A stretch of DNA of 50,138 nt from assembly GCA_020831885.1 (NCBI GenBank), contig JAFIFU010000023.1:1-50138 (forward strand), written 5' to 3'. The notes under the pieces are model-generated. The model did no database searches. It was not told the DNA's origin and worked only from the letters and a program-made list of their open reading frames with translations. The translations under genes and the position numbers were made by a program. Positions 7,690 to 47,883 of this stretch are shown here, piece by piece. The stretch is from Ectothiorhodospiraceae bacterium (GTDB lineage: Bacteria; Pseudomonadota; Gammaproteobacteria; Nitrococcales; Aquisalimonadaceae). Every line of letters begins with the position of its first letter. The stretch's first letter is position 1.

Positions 7690-10600
7690 TCACGACGCCC
7701 GGCGCACCACCACCGGTTGGGCCGGGGATTCGCCCCGCAGGCGGGCCAGCAGGGTCTGCTCCCGTTGTCTGGCCTGTTCCAGGTTGGCTGCCTTGATATG
7801 GCCGAAGCCGCGGATCTGCTCCGGAATGGCAGCGAGTTCCACGGCCAGGGCGTGATTGTCCGGTGTGAGTCGCTCCAGAAGTTCCTCCACCAATGCCTCG
7901 TAGTCGCGGATCAAGCGCCGTTCGGTGCGTCGCTCCTCAGTACGGCCGAACAGGTCCAGCGGGGTGCCACGCAGAAAGCGCAGGCGGCTTAAGACCTTGA
8001 ACGCGGTGAACACCCATGGGCCGTAAGCGGCCTTGCGCGGATGCCCGGTCACGGGATCCTTTTTCGCCAGCAATGGCGGCGCCAGGTGAACCTTGAGCCT
8101 GAAGTCACCGGCGAACTGGGTGTTGAGCCGCTCGCGGAAAGCCGGACGGCTGTAGAGCCGCGCCACTTCGTATTCGTCCTTGTAGGCCATGAGTCGTGCG
8201 TAGCCCCGGGCCACCGCCAGGGCCAGGGCGTCCTGACCGGGCACTTTCCCGGCTTCGGTCTGCTGCACCCGGCGCACCAGGTCCGTGTAGCGCCTGGCGT
8301 AGGCGGCGTTCTGGTACTCGGTCAGGTGCGCTTCGCGCTGGGCGATGACGCCCTCCAGGGTTTCCGGTTCCTTGCGCTCCGCTGCCTCCTCCACCGGCAT
8401 CTGCGGGCCGATTGCGGCTTTCACATCCTCTGGTGCGTGGGCGGCGCGGCGGCCCCAGTCGAAGGCCTGGCGGTTGGCCTCCACGGCGGCGCCGTTCAGT
8501 TCGATGGCCCGCTCGATGGCCTCCCGGGAGAGCGGAATGCGGCCCTTTTGCCAGGCGTAGCCCACCAGGAACAGGTTGCTGTAGATGGCATCCCCCATCA
8601 GCGTTGTGGCGATCCTGGTGGCGGGCAGGAAATCCACCCGCTGCTCGCCCACGGCGCGGGTGATGTCATCCACCAGCGGGCGGTCTTCCATGGGCAGGTC
8701 GGGGTTCAGCGCGAAGGCGGCGATGGGCACCACGGCGTTGTTCACCACGGCATGGGTGCGCTGAGGGGAGTAGGTGGCCAGTGCTGCCGTGCCGGCAGCC
8801 ACCACCATGTCGCAGCCCAGCACCAGGTCGCTTTCGCCCCGGCCGATGCGGGTGCAGAACAGGGATTCCGGTTTCGGCGCCAGGCGGATATGGCTGGTGA
8901 CCGCACCGTTTTTTTGCGCCAGGCCGGTCTGATCCAGCACCGAAACGCCCTTGCCCTCCAGATGCGCGGCCATGCCCAGCAGTGCCCCGATGGTCACCAC
9001 CCCGGTGCCGCCGATGCCGGTCACGAGGACGTTGTATGTGCCGTTGATGCCGGGCAGTTCCGGCTCCGGCAGATCGTGGGCGTCGGGGCCCGCCTCGGGG
9101 CGTGCCGCCTGCGACGCCGCCTTGCGCACCTCGCCGCCCTCCACCGTAAGGAAGCTGGGGCAGAAACCCTCCTGGCAGGAATAATCCTTGTTGCAGCTTG
9201 ATTGGTCGATCTGCCGCTTGCGGCCCCATTCGGTTTCCAGCGGCTTCACCGCCACGCAGTTGGACACCTTGCCGCAGTCGCCGCAGCCCTCGCAGACCGC
9301 GTCGTTGATGAATACACGCCTGGCGGGATCCGGGTAGGTGCCGCGTTTGCGCCGGCGGCGCTTCTCGGCGGCGCAGGTCTGGTCGTAGAGCAGTAGGGTC
9401 ACACCTTCCACGTCACGGAGTTCCCGCTGCACCCGGTCCAGTTCCCGCCGGTGGTGGATGCGCACGCCCTCGGCCCAGGGGGTGCCGGACGGGTACTTGT
9501 CCGGCTCATCGGTCACCACATCAATGCGACGCACGCCCTCACCCTTCAACTGCTGGGTGATGTCCCAGGGGGTGAGGGTGCCGTCCACCGGCTGGCCACC
9601 GGTCATGGCCACGGCGTCGTTGTAGAGGAGTTTGTAGGTGATGTTGACGTTGGCGGCCACGGCGGCCCGGATAGCGAGTAACCCGGAGTGGAAATAGGTG
9701 CCGTCACCCAGGTTCTGGAACACGTGTTTGTCCGCCGCGAACGGGGCCTGCCCCACCCATTGCGCGCCTTCCCCGCCCATATGGGTGAACATGGCGGTGT
9801 TGCGGTCCATCATCTGCGCCATGTAGTGACAGCCGATGCCGGCATAGGCGCGGCTACCCTCCGGCACGCGGGTGGAGGTGTTGTGGGGACAGCCGGAGCA
9901 GAACCAGGGGGTGCGCTGCATGCCGGTGGACTGTGGCGCATGCTGCACGGCGTCAATGGCGTGCTGCAGGCGTTCGGCAATCGGGCCGGGCGGACGGAAG
10001 GTGAGCAGCCGGCGGGCCAGGATTTCCGCGATGCTGTCGGCGGACAACTCCCCCGTGGCGGGTACCAGCGGGCGCCCCTCTTCATCCTGCTTGCCCAGCA
10101 GTGCCGGCTTCTCGGCATTACGGTAAAGCAGCTTGGCGAGTTGATCCTCGATGATGCCGCGCTTTTCCTCAAACACCAGGATCTGCTGCTGGCCTTTGAC
10201 GAACTCCCGAATCCCCTGCGGCTCCAGCGGCCAGGTGACAGCCACCTTGTAGACGCTGATGCCCAGTTCCTCCCGCAGTCCCCGCTCATCCAGCCCCAGG
10301 CGTTCGAAGGCGTGCATGAGATCGGCCCAGGATTTGCCGCTGGCCACCAGGCCCAGGCGACGCTTGCCCACGGGCAGATCGTGGGAGATGTAATCCAGCC
10401 GGTTGGCGCGCACGAAGGCCTGCACGGCGGGGAGTTTCACATTCACCAGCCGGTCTTCCTGCTCCAGGAAGGGGTCGGGGAAGCGGATATGGACCCCGGT
10501 GTCCGGAATGACGAAATCCCCGGGTGTGACGTAGCGCCAGCGCTCGGGGCTGACACTGACCGAGGCGGAGCCGTCGATGGTGTCGGTGACGCACTTCATG

Positions 10601-11196
10601 CCGATCCAGCAGCCGGAGTAGCGGGACAGGGCGAAGCCGGCCAGACCCAGATCCAGGTAGTCCTGCAGGTTAGCCGGGTTCATCACCGGAATGCTGGCAG
10701 CGATCAGTGCCGGTTCACTCTGGTGGGCGGTGGTGGAGGATTTGGCCATGTGGTCGTCGCCGGCCAGCGCCAGCACGCCGCCGTGGGGCGAGGTGCCGGC
10801 CAGGTTGGCGTGCTTGAAGGCGTCCCCCGAGCGGTCCACTCCCGGGCCCTTGCCGTACCAGATGCCGAACACGCCGTCATAACGCGAAGGCACGGTGGCC
10901 AGCCCCAGTTGCTGGGCACCCCAGATAGCGGTGGCGGCCAGGTCTTCGTTGACGCCGGGCTGAAAGGTGATGTGGTTTTCATCCAGATAACGGCGGGCCT
11001 TCCACAGCGCCTGGTCATAGCCGCCCAGCGGCGAGCCGCGGTAGCCGGAGATGAAGCCGCCGGTGTTCAGCCCCGCCGCCAGGTCGCGCTGGCGCTGCAA
11101 CAGCGGCAGCCGGGTCAGCGCCTGGGAGCCGGTGACGTAGATCCTGCCGTCCTCCAGGGCGTATTTGTCCTCCAGGGACACCATGGCCAGTGACAT
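7690..11196 (-). CDS. Indolepyruvate:ferredoxin oxidoreductase, fused IorA-IorB type
   Basis: A 1168-residue TPP- and Fe-S-dependent 2-oxoacid oxidoreductase that decarboxylates aryl-pyruvates (indole- or phenylpyruvate) to aryl-acetyl-CoA with reduction of ferredoxin. The N-terminal half has pyruvate:ferredoxin-oxidoreductase-like domains with a TPP region near residue 495 (NLGDGTYFHSG). A ferredoxin-like cluster follows near residue 640 (CEGCGDCGKVSNC, then CNKDYSCQEGFC). The C-terminal half is the gamma/IorB-like domain (TGIGGTGVVTIGALLG). The start at 11196 is set by a strong GGAGGAG seven bases upstream. The longer frame to 11274 reads through a repeat element and is rejected. The role may be aromatic amino acid catabolism. 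Confidence 0.5.
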   Translation of the reverse strand: MSLAMVSLEDKYALEDGRIYVTGSQALTRLPLLQRQRDLAAGLNTGGFISGYRGSPLGGYDQALWKARRYLDENHITFQPGVNEDLAATAIWGAQQLGLATVPSRYDGVFGIWYGKGPGVDRSGDAFKHANLAGTSPHGGVLALAGDDHMAKSSTTAHQSEPALIAASIPVMNPANLQDYLDLGLAGFALSRYSGCWIGMKCVTDTIDGSASVSVSPERWRYVTPGDFVIPDTGVHIRFPDPFLEQEDRLVNVKLPAVQAFVRANRLDYISHDLPVGKRRLGLVASGKSWADLMHAFERLGLDERGLREELGISVYKVAVTWPLEPQGIREFVKGQQQILVFEEKRGIIEDQLAKLLYRNAEKPALLGKQDEEGRPLVPATGELSADSIAEILARRLLTFRPPGPIAERLQHAIDAVQHAPQSTGMQRTPWFCSGCPHNTSTRVPEGSRAYAGIGCHYMAQMMDRNTAMFTHMGGEGAQWVGQAPFAADKHVFQNLGDGTYFHSGLLAIRAAVAANVNITYKLLYNDAVAMTGGQPVDGTLTPWDITQQLKGEGVRRIDVVTDEPDKYPSGTPWAEGVRIHHRRELDRVQRELRDVEGVTLLLYDQTCAAEKRRRRKRGTYPDPARRVFINDAVCEGCGDCGKVSNCVAVKPLETEWGRKRQIDQSSCNKDYSCQEGFCPSFLTVEGGEVRKAASQAARPEAGPDAHDLPEPELPGINGTYNVLVTGIGGTGVVTIGALLGMAAHLEGKGVSVLDQTGLAQKNGAVTSHIRLAPKPESLFCTRIGRGESDLVLGCDMVVAAGTAALATYSPQRTHAVVNNAVVPIAAFALNPDLPMEDRPLVDDITRAVGEQRVDFLPATRIATTLMGDAIYSNLFLVGYAWQKGRIPLSREAIERAIELNGAAVEANRQAFDWGRRAAHAPEDVKAAIGPQMPVEEAAERKEPETLEGVIAQREAHLTEYQNAAYARRYTDLVRRVQQTEAGKVPGQDALALAVARGYARLMAYKDEYEVARLYSRPAFRERLNTQFAGDFRLKVHLAPPLLAKKDPVTGHPRKAAYGPWVFTAFKVLSRLRFLRGTPLDLFGRTEERRTERRLIRDYEALVEELLERLTPDNHALAVELAAIPEQIRGFGHIKAANLEQARQREQTLLARLRGESPAQPVVVRRAS

Positions 11197-11206
11197 CGGG
11201 CTTCTC

Positions 11207-11353
11207 CTCCAAGCCGGCGGCTGCTTGCAGCGGGTCCGGGTGCGGTGTTGCGGCTCTTGCCAAGGGCTTGCCACTGCCTGCGAGCCGCGCCTTGCCCCCG
11301 AACACGTGCAAAGTTCAGAGCACCTTGGGAATAGATCAGTGCTTCCTTAAAGG
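11207..11353 (-). repeat. MITE-like element, long copy (5' leader of the oxidoreductase)
   Basis: Reading on the minus strand, CCTTTAAGGAAGCACTGATC starts the element near 11353. A GGTGCTC...TGCACG spacer follows, then a core of about 90 bp reaching almost to the ribosome site of the oxidoreductase. The core aligns with 35195-35300 at roughly 85% identity by eye, and part of it appears inverted at 45110-45170. The terminal motif recurs at 24936, 38894, 40120, 45058 and 47861. It encodes no protein of its own, so it looks like a non-autonomous element. Confidence 0.75.
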
Positions 11354-23714: not shown

Positions 23715-23727
23715 ATCGGCAGCCTTT

Positions 23728-24080
23728 GACGTCGGTGATCCGCCCTGCGGACGGCTACCGGCCGACGGTTCCGGGCGCCTGGGTCGGGTGCCCGCGTAGG
23801 TCGGAAGCCCTGCGCAGCAGGGATCTCCGACGTTGACCCGATCCGGTCTTGGCGTTTGATGTCGGTGATCCGCGCTGGCGCGCGGCTACCGACCTACGCC
23901 GGGGGGCGGGGCTGTGTTCTGTAGGTCGGAAGCCCTGCGCAGCAGGGATCTCCGACGATGCGGCGGTGGGTTTGGTTGACGTCGGTGATCCGCCCTTCGG
24001 GCGGCTACCGACCTACGCTGGGTCTGCGGCTTGACCAGCCCAAGAGAGGTCGGAAGCCCCGCGCAGCGGGGATCTCCGAC
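23728..24080. repeat. Cluster of six alternating REP palindromes
   Basis: Six REP-like units of 35-37 bp lie at 23728-23760 (degenerate), 23796-23831, 23861-23897, 23921-23956, 23981-24016 and 24046-24080. Two classes alternate: class T reads GTCGGTGATCCGC ... GCGGCTACCGACCTAC, and class A reads GTAGGTCGGAAGCCC ... GGGATCTCCGAC. Each can fold into a hairpin. They fill the 381-bp gap between the 3' ends of two convergent genes, the usual REP/BIME location. There is no CRISPR-like unique spacer pattern or cas gene. Confidence 0.9.
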
Positions 24081-24095
24081 ATGGCCAGCGTATCC

Positions 24096-24905
24096 CTACA
24101 GAAAGATGATCAGCAGAATCACCCCGAGAATGACCCGGTACGCCACAAACGGCTGCATGCCGATGCGTTTGATGAATGCCAGGAAGTAATGAATGCACAG
24201 GTAGGCGCTGATGCCGGACAGGATCGCGCCCAGAATCAACGGCCCCCAGTCCACTGTATTGCCCGGGTTAAGCAAGGCGATCAGTTCCAGGCCACTGGCC
24301 AGGATGATCACCGGAATGGAGAGCAGGAACGAGAAGCGCGCCGCGGCCTCGCGGCTCAGGCCCATGAACAGCGCCGCCGTCATGGTGATCCCGGAACGCG
24401 AGGTTCCCGGAATCAGCGCCACAGCCTGGGCGAAACCGATCACCGCCACATCGGTCCAGCGCATGTCGCGTTCACGTCGTTCGCCGCGGAACTTCCAGTC
24501 CGCCAGCCCAAGCAGCAGGCCGAAACCGATCAGCGAGCAGGCAATCACGATGGCGCCCACCTCCGGGGTGCGCAGGGTGGTCTCCACCAGATCCTTGAAC
24601 ATCAACCCGAAGACACCTACCGGAATCGTGCCCCAGAGCACCGCCCAGGCCAGCCGTGAGTTCTCTGTCTGCTGCCGCGTGATCACCGAGCGCGTCCAGT
24701 CCCGGGTCATGAGCAGGATGTCCTTGCGGAAGTAGAGCATGACCGCGGCCAGGCTACCCGCATGCACCGCCAGATCGAAGGCCAGCCCCTGATCCTCCCA
24801 GGCGGTGAGCAGTGGAACCAGGATCAGGTGGCCGGCGCTGGAGATGGGCAGGAACTCAGTCAGCCCCTGGACGATGGAGAGAACGAAGACCTCAATGAAA
24901 GACAT
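24096..24905 (-). CDS. uppP: Undecaprenyl-diphosphatase UppP (BacA)
   Basis: A 269-residue polytopic inner-membrane enzyme that dephosphorylates undecaprenyl pyrophosphate, recycling the lipid carrier for peptidoglycan and other envelope polymers, and conferring bacitracin tolerance. Both catalytic motifs are present: EFLPISSAGHLIL near residue 17 and PGTSRSGITMTAALF near residue 165, which hold the Glu, Ser and Arg needed for activity. AAGGAC lies upstream of the ATG. The leader at 24936-24959 carries a solo end of the MITE-like family. Confidence 0.5.
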   Translation of the reverse strand: MSFIEVFVLSIVQGLTEFLPISSAGHLILVPLLTAWEDQGLAFDLAVHAGSLAAVMLYFRKDILLMTRDWTRSVITRQQTENSRLAWAVLWGTIPVGVFGLMFKDLVETTLRTPEVGAIVIACSLIGFGLLLGLADWKFRGERRERDMRWTDVAVIGFAQAVALIPGTSRSGITMTAALFMGLSREAAARFSFLLSIPVIILASGLELIALLNPGNTVDWGPLILGAILSGISAYLCIHYFLAFIKRIGMQPFVAYRVILGVILLIIFL

Positions 24906-24935: not shown

Positions 24936-24959
24936 GGGAATCGATCAGCGCTTCCTTGG
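24936..24959 (-). repeat. Solo end of MITE-like family upstream of uppP
   Basis: On the minus strand it reads GGAAGCGCTGATCGATTCCC with a preceding AA, 31-54 bp upstream of the uppP start. It matches the family terminal motif with two substitutions. No core sequence is recognisable. Confidence 0.6.
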
Positions 24960-32649: not shown

Positions 32650-32725
<76 letters not shown>

Positions 32726-35194: not shown

Positions 35195-35300
35195 CCGCCG
35201 CGGGGCAAGGCGCGGTTCGCAGACAATGGCGAGCCCCTGGCAAGAGCCGCAACGGCCTTCCCGGACACGCTGCAAAGTCCCGCCGGGCGCCATGGTGTCG
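35195..35300 (+). repeat. MITE-like family core without clear ends
   Basis: The sequence GGGGCAAGGCGCGGTTCGC and the following 75 bp, including GCAAGAGCCGCAAC and CCGGACACGCTGCAAAG, align with the core at 11207-11300 (minus strand). The right edge ends in GCGCCATGGTG, which is like the inner end of the terminal repeat. It lies upstream of the phasin promoter. Confidence 0.7.
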
Positions 35301-40126: not shown

Positions 40127-40183
40127 GGAAGCACTGATCTATTCCCACGCTGCAAAGCCAGTGCACCATGGGGATGAATTAAC
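40120..40183 (+). repeat. Internally deleted MITE-like element with both ends
   Basis: The left end CCTTTAAGGAAGCACTGATC is followed by ATTCCCA, then a core remnant CACGCTGCAAAG, then GTGCACCATGGGGATGAAT, which reads as a degenerate inverted right end. This is the most compact derivative of the family and suggests internal deletion between ends. It overlaps the stop codon of the PGPGW-like gene and lies 50 bp upstream of the kinase gene. Confidence 0.6.
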
Positions 40184-45057: not shown

Positions 45058-45170
45058 GGGAAGCACTGAACTATTCCCATGGTGCTCAGCGTGCACGAAG
45101 GGCCCGCCCTTCGGGGCTCTGCAGCGTGTCCGGGTGCGGTGTTGAGCGGTTGTCGGCAAGGTGCGCGACC
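45058..45170 (+). repeat. MITE-like element with inverted core
   Basis: GGGAAGCACTGAACTATTCC begins the copy at 45058; CCATGGTGCTCAGCGTGCAC follows. The core (45112-45165) is in the opposite orientation: CGTGTCCGGGTGCGGTGTTG is the reverse of the core at 11240. This copy fills much of the 305-bp gap between the EAL gene and the Cys-Cys membrane gene, where no protein gene is seen. Confidence 0.65.
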
Positions 45171-46787: not shown

Positions 46788-46976
46788 TTTCAGGAGGTAA
46801 AGCCTTGATTCAGCGCCTTCGACAACACCGCTCGGTATCCCCGGACTTCCTGTCGGTGATCCGCGCTGCGCGCGGCTACCGACCTACGCGGGGCCGGCGG
46901 CGGGAGTGTAGGTCGGAAGCCCTGCGCGGCAGGGATCTCCGACAGTACCGCTGAATCATGGCTTTACCTCCTGAAA
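46788..46976. mobile_element. 189-bp element with 28-bp TIRs enclosing a REP pair
   Basis: Left 46788-46815 and right 46949-46976 are inverted repeats of 28 bp with a single mismatch (TTTCAGGAGGTAAAGCC ... ). Between them lie one REP of each class (46852-46887 and 46908-46943). It encodes no protein. A solo, diverged end is at 16071-16092. Short flanking duplications were not found by eye. It fills the 290-bp gap between the DUF3179 gene and the permuted hydrolase gene. Confidence 0.75.
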
Positions 46977-47055: not shown

Positions 47056-47883
47056 TCAGGCCGTGGGGCTGGGCCGGTTTTCCACCGGGGTCGTGTCGCG
47101 GCTGCCGTTGCCCGGCTCATGCCAAATCAGTCGGTGCGGATCGAAGCCGACCGAGACAACGGGCTTGATCACGTCGAAATAGGGTGAGACATCGAAGTCC
47201 CTTGGGGTGAACAGGGAATGATGCCGGATATGAAGCACCTCGTCGTAGCAACTCTTGTAGCGCGGGTCGTCCGACGGCAGCAGGCTGACCTCCGGGAGAA
47301 TGGGATACCGTACGCTCTGGAAAGCCTGCGCAATCAATGAGGAACAGATGGCACGCGTGGGATCCCCGCTTCCCAGGGCGATCATCCGCCGGCGGAACCG
47401 CGTGGGGACCGGAGGTGTCGGGAGCAGGTACCGGGCCAGATCAATGATGTTCCGCACATCATAATGATGACCGACCCGGGCCCGCGCGTAGTCAATGACC
47501 TGGCGGATTTCCCCATCCTCCAGGCCCACCGGTCGGCAGATACGGGTATGGGACAGGGTGTAGGTGGACAGGGGGATTACCTGCACTCCCGCGTTCACAT
47601 CCGCCTCCACCAGCATCATGGTGGAGGCGCTGCGGCTGATGCCCCGGGAGGCATCATGGCCGATGCACAGGGCAGCGTGCGACCAGGTGGATTGGGTGAG
47701 GTACTTGATTGCGGTGCTGAACCGGCTGGTACCTTCAACCAGGAGCACGTCTCCGGGCCGGATCTGGCTCACAGTCAGCTCCGGCGGGACGTTCGGCACA
47801 TCTCCCTGGTTCGGGCGAGGTCGGGCCAGGAATCGGGCGAGTCGACTACCGATCCCTCTTGGGAAGCGCTGATCTATTCCCAT
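47056..47883 (-). CDS. Permuted papain-like hydrolase (YiiX/YebB-like)
   Basis: A 275-residue protein. The motif order is His first (TQSTWSHAALCIG, His in WSH) and Cys later (RAICSSLIAQAFQ), the circularly permuted NlpC/P60 arrangement of the YiiX/YaeF family. These act as amidases or lipid-linked hydrolases at the envelope; the target here is unknown. No signal peptide is visible. The ATG at 47883 and the next seven codons (MGIDQRFP) come from a repeat end; a downstream start is possible, so the true N-terminus is uncertain. Confidence 0.5.
   Translation of the reverse strand: MGIDQRFPRGIGSRLARFLARPRPNQGDVPNVPPELTVSQIRPGDVLLVEGTSRFSTAIKYLTQSTWSHAALCIGHDASRGISRSASTMMLVEADVNAGVQVIPLSTYTLSHTRICRPVGLEDGEIRQVIDYARARVGHHYDVRNIIDLARYLLPTPPVPTRFRRRMIALGSGDPTRAICSSLIAQAFQSVRYPILPEVSLLPSDDPRYKSCYDEVLHIRHHSLFTPRDFDVSPYFDVIKPVVSVGFDPHRLIWHEPGNGSRDTTPVENRPSPTA

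Follow-up and report, generated by a model that had tools for sequence, protein, structure and literature searches.

Non-autonomous transposable elements of the MITE type are commonly viewed as IS copies that have lost internal sequence and whose interiors are neutral. Among the described families, MITEPsy1 of Pseudomonas syringae measures 100 nt with 18-nt ends and is thought to derive from ISPsy2, entered as 'IS5?' in the table of that report (PMC3189936). Like the family analyzed here, it is a MITE with a GGAAG... end and a 4-nt duplication at CTAG or YTAA, while a two-hairpin interior is absent from its description in the text available, description being the level at which the two were compared (PMC3189936). 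QMITE1 and QMITE2 of Coxiella burnetii are likewise gammaproteobacterial MITEs, with ends of 21–29 bp and very stable palindromic folds; they are set apart by description, with lengths of about 400 and 190 bp, and in the accessible parts of the reports the authors find no orthologues of QMITE1 (PMC5896051, PMC10969869). Of the intergenic repeats R0, R2, R6, and R200 of Pseudomonas fluorescens, some are MITE-like and form hairpins, and R0 and R2 share inverted repeats with resident IS (PMC2718517). R200 (320 bp) and R6 (177 bp, with 34-bp repeats), known here from their description in the available part of that paper, could belong with the present family (PMC2718517), and the R families and QMITEs are regarded as possible relatives.

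REP, REPIN, and BIME sequences are also palindromic, intergenic, and often paired in opposite orientation. They are 20–40 bp long and carry a GTAG or CGTC tag in the account available (PMC3733652), whereas the present repeat is built of ~107-nt units in transposon-type ends; the REP/REPIN combination of a 20–40-bp palindrome and a tag tetranucleotide was not found in it. No description of the unit or the family was found in the open-access literature, including the available text of PMC2267715, PMC3832224, and PMC4853749, and searches there with the end and head sequences as text returned nothing related, as judged by title.

The repeat was analyzed from a window of 50,138 nucleotides, the whole stretch of contig JAFIFU010000023.1 studied, belonging to an Ectothiorhodospiraceae bacterium (the host). 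A preliminary description of this window was right in calling the repeats MITE-like and overlooked a conserved interior that is common to other end types. By test the family is a MITE; the new part is an interior that, as far as sequence comparison goes, appears to behave like a structured-RNA module.

Repeat copies in the window

Six places in the window hold parts of the repeat (Table 1), one fewer than the seven copies first counted. Five of the six end-motif positions given in the preliminary description were recovered at ≤3 mismatches, a level reached 0 times in 100 dinucleotide shuffles of the window. At the sixth, 38894, the first 10 bases agree with little beyond, and this candidate was rejected as lying above the three-mismatch threshold. 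The common core that had been proposed proved to be one core on opposite strands, with 11214–11298 being 82% complementary to 35202–35286 over 85 nt, and the hairpin model recovered these sites at 77.9 and 43.1 bits, respectively. Near 45112–45165, where another part of the core had been placed, the match shrinks to a 25-nt piece (45120–45144, 96% identical to 11226–11250). No intact copy occurs in the window, no inverted end pair being found within 6 kb at ≤4 mismatches, and all six places are decayed fragments. The copy at 11207–11346 folds no better than its shuffles (z 0.71).

Table 1. Places in the window that hold parts of the repeat family
Feature	Position	Strand	End motif	Details
One-ended copy	11216..11346	-	11327-11346	one hairpin unit, 11216-11321; other end missing
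Lone end motif, 2 mismatches	24936..24955	-	24936-24955	upstream of BacA-family gene 24099-24905
Hairpin unit without end motif, truncated	35202..35286	+		model match 35202-35261, 43.1 bits
End motif	40127..40146	+	40127-40146	degenerate opposite-end piece within ~45 bases after, by eye
End motif, then outer-stem arms of two units, by eye	45059..45144	+	45059-45078	heads gone
Lone end motif	47862..47881	+	47862-47881	inner edge holds ATG of minus-strand ORF 47056-47883

The minus-strand ORF that begins at the inner edge of the last of these motifs matches Peptidase_C92 from residue 40. With its ATG in this position, the ORF may owe its start codon, or an extension of its N-terminus, to the MITE end.

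A second repeat family is present in the window as clusters of GTAGGTCGG...CCGAC palindromes, which are REP-like and carry a GTAG tag (1–196, 23727–24082, and 46843–46944). Two identical 55-nt copies of this type lie at 1–55 and 142–196. A 28-nt inverted repeat (96%; 46788–46815 and 46949–46976) encloses the REP-like cluster between its arms, as if the whole were a small element. When the window was searched against Rfam 15 with gathering thresholds, the tRNA gene at 32650–32722 was the sole match.

The family in the host genome

Throughout the host assembly (4.13 Mb in 129 contigs), the end motif was found at 166 places at ≤2 mismatches, 86 forward and 80 reverse. The reversed motif, searched as a control over the whole assembly, occurred at 0 places in either direction. 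Motif and core do co-occur elsewhere in the genome, as a repeat family of the kind first proposed should show. Among the host loci sampled, 20 distinct both-ended copies of 41–266 bp were identified. These comprise back-to-back ends (41 bp), copies with a partial or single unit (112–205 bp), and copies with two units (263–266 bp), which bears out the earlier view of a modular family whose copies retain different modules. One minimal 41-bp copy (L007, 1501–1541) consists of two end motifs separated by one base. The copies are too short to encode a transposase, and movers, if any, must therefore come from elsewhere.

Both flanks could be read in 19 of the 20 intact copies. Identical 4-bp flanks were present in 10 of the 19, nine of them YTAR and one TAAA, and the flanks differed in the other 9. 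YTAR stood on the left of 13 and on the right of 15 of these 19 copies, with a background frequency in the window of 0.00076 per position. Inverted ends, target-site duplication, short length, many copies, and the lack of a transposase were all observed, and no related autonomous IS was found in the host assembly, which is fragmented. Among the listed places, at least 13 contig starts fall no more than 60 bases from an end motif; copies thus interrupt the assembly, from which a longer relative may be missing. A search for an empty site with the joined flanks of one copy returned no relative spanning the site. The family is almost certainly a non-autonomous transposable element (MITE) of IS5-family type with inverted ends of ~20 bp.

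All six window places adjoin at least one called gene start. The adjoining genes are 7693–11199 (POR, DUF6537, and TPP-binding domains) and genes for BacA, GspH, histone-deacetylase-like, phasin, HATPase, EAL/GGDEF, and Peptidase_C92 proteins. A preference for 5' leaders, suggested in the preliminary description, finds no support in the host copies. With a gene caller trained on 12 window genes and hence approximate, 14 of the 18 classifiable intact host copies were placed beside a gene start (5 divergent and 9 co-directional) and 4 between convergent genes; none was called inside a gene, and 1 lay at a contig edge. The 27 intergenic gaps of at least 60 bp in the window divide into 20 beside a gene start and 7 convergent (7, 13, and 7 in the same order of classes).

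Candidate mover

DDE_Tnp_1 was not detected in the host assembly at E ≤ 0.001, while it is present in 31 of the 59 genomes of the relatives set, and a mover is thus visible in relatives only. IS5-family transposases (NF033581, IS5_4) were identified in a genome of the same genus (G001, locus L096; E 5e-102) and in one of the same family (G003, locus L097; E 1.5e-101). The ends of these IS differ from the motif at 3–4 of 20 bases, and the L097 copy has TTAG on both sides. The two IS differ from the MITE in encoding a 327-aa transposase and in having no hairpin unit. The hairpin unit was absent from inside the IS in all 30 IS loci scanned, and only a separate MITE in L096 holds it; there the IS adjoins a MITE carrying the same interior.

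The IS5 group uses a YTAR-type target, in line with MITEPsy1, and the repeat shows both IS5-like ends and a YTAR-type 4-bp target, as a derivative of this family should. The earlier expectation that a transposase elsewhere moves the copies is consistent with the IS5-family elements in relatives. Equality with a known IS end, which the preliminary description would have counted against the family, applies in part, the two L097 IS ends differing from the motif at 3 and 4 of 20 bases; such near-IS ends fit a MITE and do not refute one. Several other candidates were rejected by eye. In L081, L084, and L092, considered as autonomous elements, the stretch between the distant ends holds ORFs that look like unrelated genes, or none. 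L022 had the look of an IS adjoining an end, but what follows there is only a piece similar to the C-terminus of an integrase.

Structure of the hairpin unit

When 48 units were folded, most gave a hairpin of ~107 nt composed of a ~20-bp outer stem, a 7-bp inner stem, and a small top stem. Its conserved head reads GCAAGGCG ... CAACGCCG around the variable inner stem. Boxes of integron attC sites, for reference, read RYYYAAC/GTTRRRY. Over 208 distinct units, the 5' side of the head is C98 A86 A97 G100 G100 C99 G87 and the 3' side C85 A99 A99 C97 G80 C85 C61 G99 (per cent), values inflated by anchoring the profile on the head itself. The 208 units comprise 166 of 178 model matches and 42 units from 21 loci of the order, which include three host loci and were picked for holding two units. 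The 12 matches left out were two duplicates in L259 and cut, second-strand, or otherwise odd units in L158, L163, L165 (two), L173, L194, L220 (two), L237, and L257. In L133 (1397–1503), a short tandem duplication of the head within a unit shifts the register of the model.

In a MAFFT alignment of 28 units (A1), 81.6% of cells were paired compared to 67.3% after shuffling, and covariation reached 0.360 compared to 0.143, the structure having been drawn by hand from these same sequences and the units chosen from 48. The 20 units left out of A1 either looked truncated or chimeric on inspection or nearly repeated units that were kept. On all five measures, 0 of 500 shuffles scored as high as the drawn structure, and slid controls were lower. 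RNAalifold alone recovers part of the structure (23 pairs, 15 with two-sided changes). In alignment A4, which was fitted to the model, two of the five covariation measures were not clear of the shuffles (39 of 500 and 156 of 500).

Outer 20-bp stems differ greatly in sequence from one element to another, with their pairing retained: in the 208 units, from 119 loci, they were Watson-Crick paired at 81.4% of positions, compared to 31.5% when arms were dealt among loci. Inner stems reached 81.2% compared to 46.5% in the control, for the 203 of 208 units in which both anchors were found (146 distinct stems). The sequences are related, so these counts are not independent events. Compensatory base changes of the kind asked of a structured RNA are present in the stems of the unit, with the reservations that come from A4. 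For one intact host copy, the predicted fold has a free energy of -177.6 kcal/mol (z -11.3). A pseudoknot of CAAGG with CCTTG was considered and dropped, as the nested hairpin accounts for the changes. Searched against Rfam 15 to an E-value of 2, the loci L009, L065, L067, and L039 gave two matches far below gathering scores, at E 0.49 (overlapping the L065 element) and E 1.7.

Distribution, layout, and ends

The covariance model of the unit found matches in 23 of 54 genomes of the order (E ≤ 1e-3), among them all 14 of the host's family. At E ≤ 1e-4, 93 of 369 genomes sampled from the class and 48 of 398 sampled from the phylum carried it. These sets include the host and overlap by a few genomes, and the counts refer to units, not whole elements. 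E-values in distant genomes reach about 3e-27.

Two adjacent, oppositely oriented units were the recurrent layout, with 88 pairs in 64 genomes. In the 86 two-unit elements measured, the unit pair spans 208–233 bp, mostly 212–218 bp, and the ends pair on average at 26.9 of 30 positions compared to 12.6 in the control, both taken as the best of seven shifts; 78 of the 86 pair at 24 or more, and three elements have poorly pairing ends (L239, L133, and L139). An earlier test in a fixed register (47.8% Watson-Crick compared to 28.3%) was replaced because of one-base register shifts. The minimum free energy structure has a long end stem and two large arms with a small arm between them in 13 of 14 elements, L175 folding otherwise, and the same arrangement was found in a further 9 folded elements. 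Some relatives hold more than two units per element. In L141 and L144, from another genus of the family, three detected units lie in one larger palindrome at about 1365–1856.

The ends of the 88 elements fall into 16 groups by average linkage at 0.42, in which the placing of L133 is a register artefact, while single linkage at 13/18 joins 75 of the 88, and the number of end types thus depends on the method. The clearest split is between GGAARCRCTGA (IS5-like) and AGTGTCC ends. An IS4-family element with AGTGTCCGGTTAA ends (L095, NF033592) is present in genome G010 and is tentatively proposed as the partner of the AGTGTCC ends, given one IS and about nine shared end bases. Ends of the GTACTCTTTCAAGGTAATAA type occur at 63, 15, 49, and 13 places in four genomes; an autonomous partner for them was sought and rejected, since by eye their inverted pairs lie at most 387 bp apart, which is not IS spacing.

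Searches of phages returned no match, and searches of plasmids returned none for the window copy. Other elements matched plasmids of Azotobacter chroococcum, Pseudomonas aeruginosa PA83, Halomonas sp. PA16-9, and Comamonas odontotermitis. The model finds the unit in all four of these plasmid regions, with an adjacent, oppositely oriented pair in Halomonas only. The PA83 element (L271, 1201–1470), with one unit by the model, lies between same-strand acyl-CoA dehydrogenase and CaiB-family genes, about 5 and 30 bases from them, and is therefore probably transcribed through.

Strand signature of the pairing

The 208 units were divided by pairing of the outer stem into 172 with at least 14 of 20 Watson-Crick pairs, 15 with 10–13, and 21 with fewer. 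On the head-bearing strand of the 172 well-paired units, G-U pairs outnumber A-C mismatches by 204 to 43, a ratio of 4.74 (3.4–7.2 by bootstrap over loci). The excess was seen in both unit orientations (97:16 and 107:27) and, among 48 units located by nothing but their head sequence, in the 35 that are well paired (51:16). Including poorly paired units, all 208 gave 249 G-U and 102 A-C, with 12.8 and 10.1%, respectively, in their dealt-arm control. The units with 10–13 pairs count against the excess, with 11 G-U and 16 A-C. In the end arms G-U and A-C stand at 70 and 63, a weak control because elements are read there in arbitrary orientation.

An excess of G-U on the head-bearing strand favors selection on a folded single strand, and the unit has probably been selected as such. 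G-T pairs are favored over A-C in folded ssDNA too, so RNA is not proven by this ratio. RNA is still the somewhat likelier form of the folded strand, because copies often sit where transcripts should run through, as with the 9 of 18 host copies flanked by co-directional genes and the PA83 plasmid element.

Discussion

The preferred reading, at a rough probability of 0.6, is that the repeats are decayed MITEs with a conserved hairpin module that works as a folded strand. An IS5-family transposase acting in trans would have moved the element, its gene having since been lost from the host genome or lying in a part of it that is not assembled. Full-size elements hold two units in opposite orientation, so that either strand shows one unit in the conserved sense, and this two-way layout would let the unit work in either insertion orientation. 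The active form of the unit would be a folded single strand, and most likely the RNA of transcripts crossing the element. It is conceivable, as a tentative extension, that the unit changes how the read-through transcript is processed, degraded, or terminated, for instance, and so makes insertions tolerated. The same interior stands behind several end types, so its retention does not seem to depend on any single transposase. A bolder version, to be held just as loosely, would make the unit a ~107-nt structured-RNA module, doubled for display either way, that has spread through the Pseudomonadota behind several transposon ends as a "landing gear" for tolerance by host transcripts, and that may be a common class absent from Rfam.

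The hairpins could instead be palindromes of DNA only, kept perfect by template-switch correction, with the head retained by descent or as a DNA-binding site. Template-switch correction is known for quasi-palindromes, and in most elements all arms, the ends included, are near-perfect palindromes; the end arms also lack a G-U excess, although their arbitrary orientation makes that ratio weak as a control. A strand-blind process predicts about as many G-U as A-C pairs, however, which is at odds with the 204 to 43 counted when well-paired units are read on the strand that bears the head, and with the same G-U sense in both oppositely oriented units, and this alternative is considered unlikely. 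A role in transposition, with the unit as an ssDNA hairpin or binding site that aids the transposase or a host factor, would suit the symmetry of the two units as a DNA-end function, the nearly fixed span of the unit pair, and the well-paired ends of 78 of 86 two-unit elements. The unit stands behind IS5-like and, tentatively, IS4-like ends, though, so both transposases would need one internal site, and it was absent inside the IS of the 30 loci scanned; such a role is judged quite unlikely.

Least probable by far is an ordinary MITE, an internally deleted IS5 with neutral palindromes such as MITEs typically contain, the widespread matches reflecting convergence of GC-rich hairpins. Stably folding MITEs have been described, among them, as far as their available accounts go, QMITE1/2 (PMC5896051) and MITEPsy1 (PMC3189936). 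Convergence explains neither the conserved head, even with its profile anchored on the head, nor E-values to about 3e-27 in distant genomes, nor the constant two-unit layout.

In the reading of decayed MITEs with a working hairpin module, the interior is more widely shared than the ends and bears a strand-specific pairing signature of selection. Repeat families that are named by their ends can thereby hide one common interior. If the reading is true, the unit would be a common structured element, unmatched in Rfam 15 in the searches run and present in roughly one in four of the genomes drawn from the class, and might account for the tolerance of such repeats by compact genomes.
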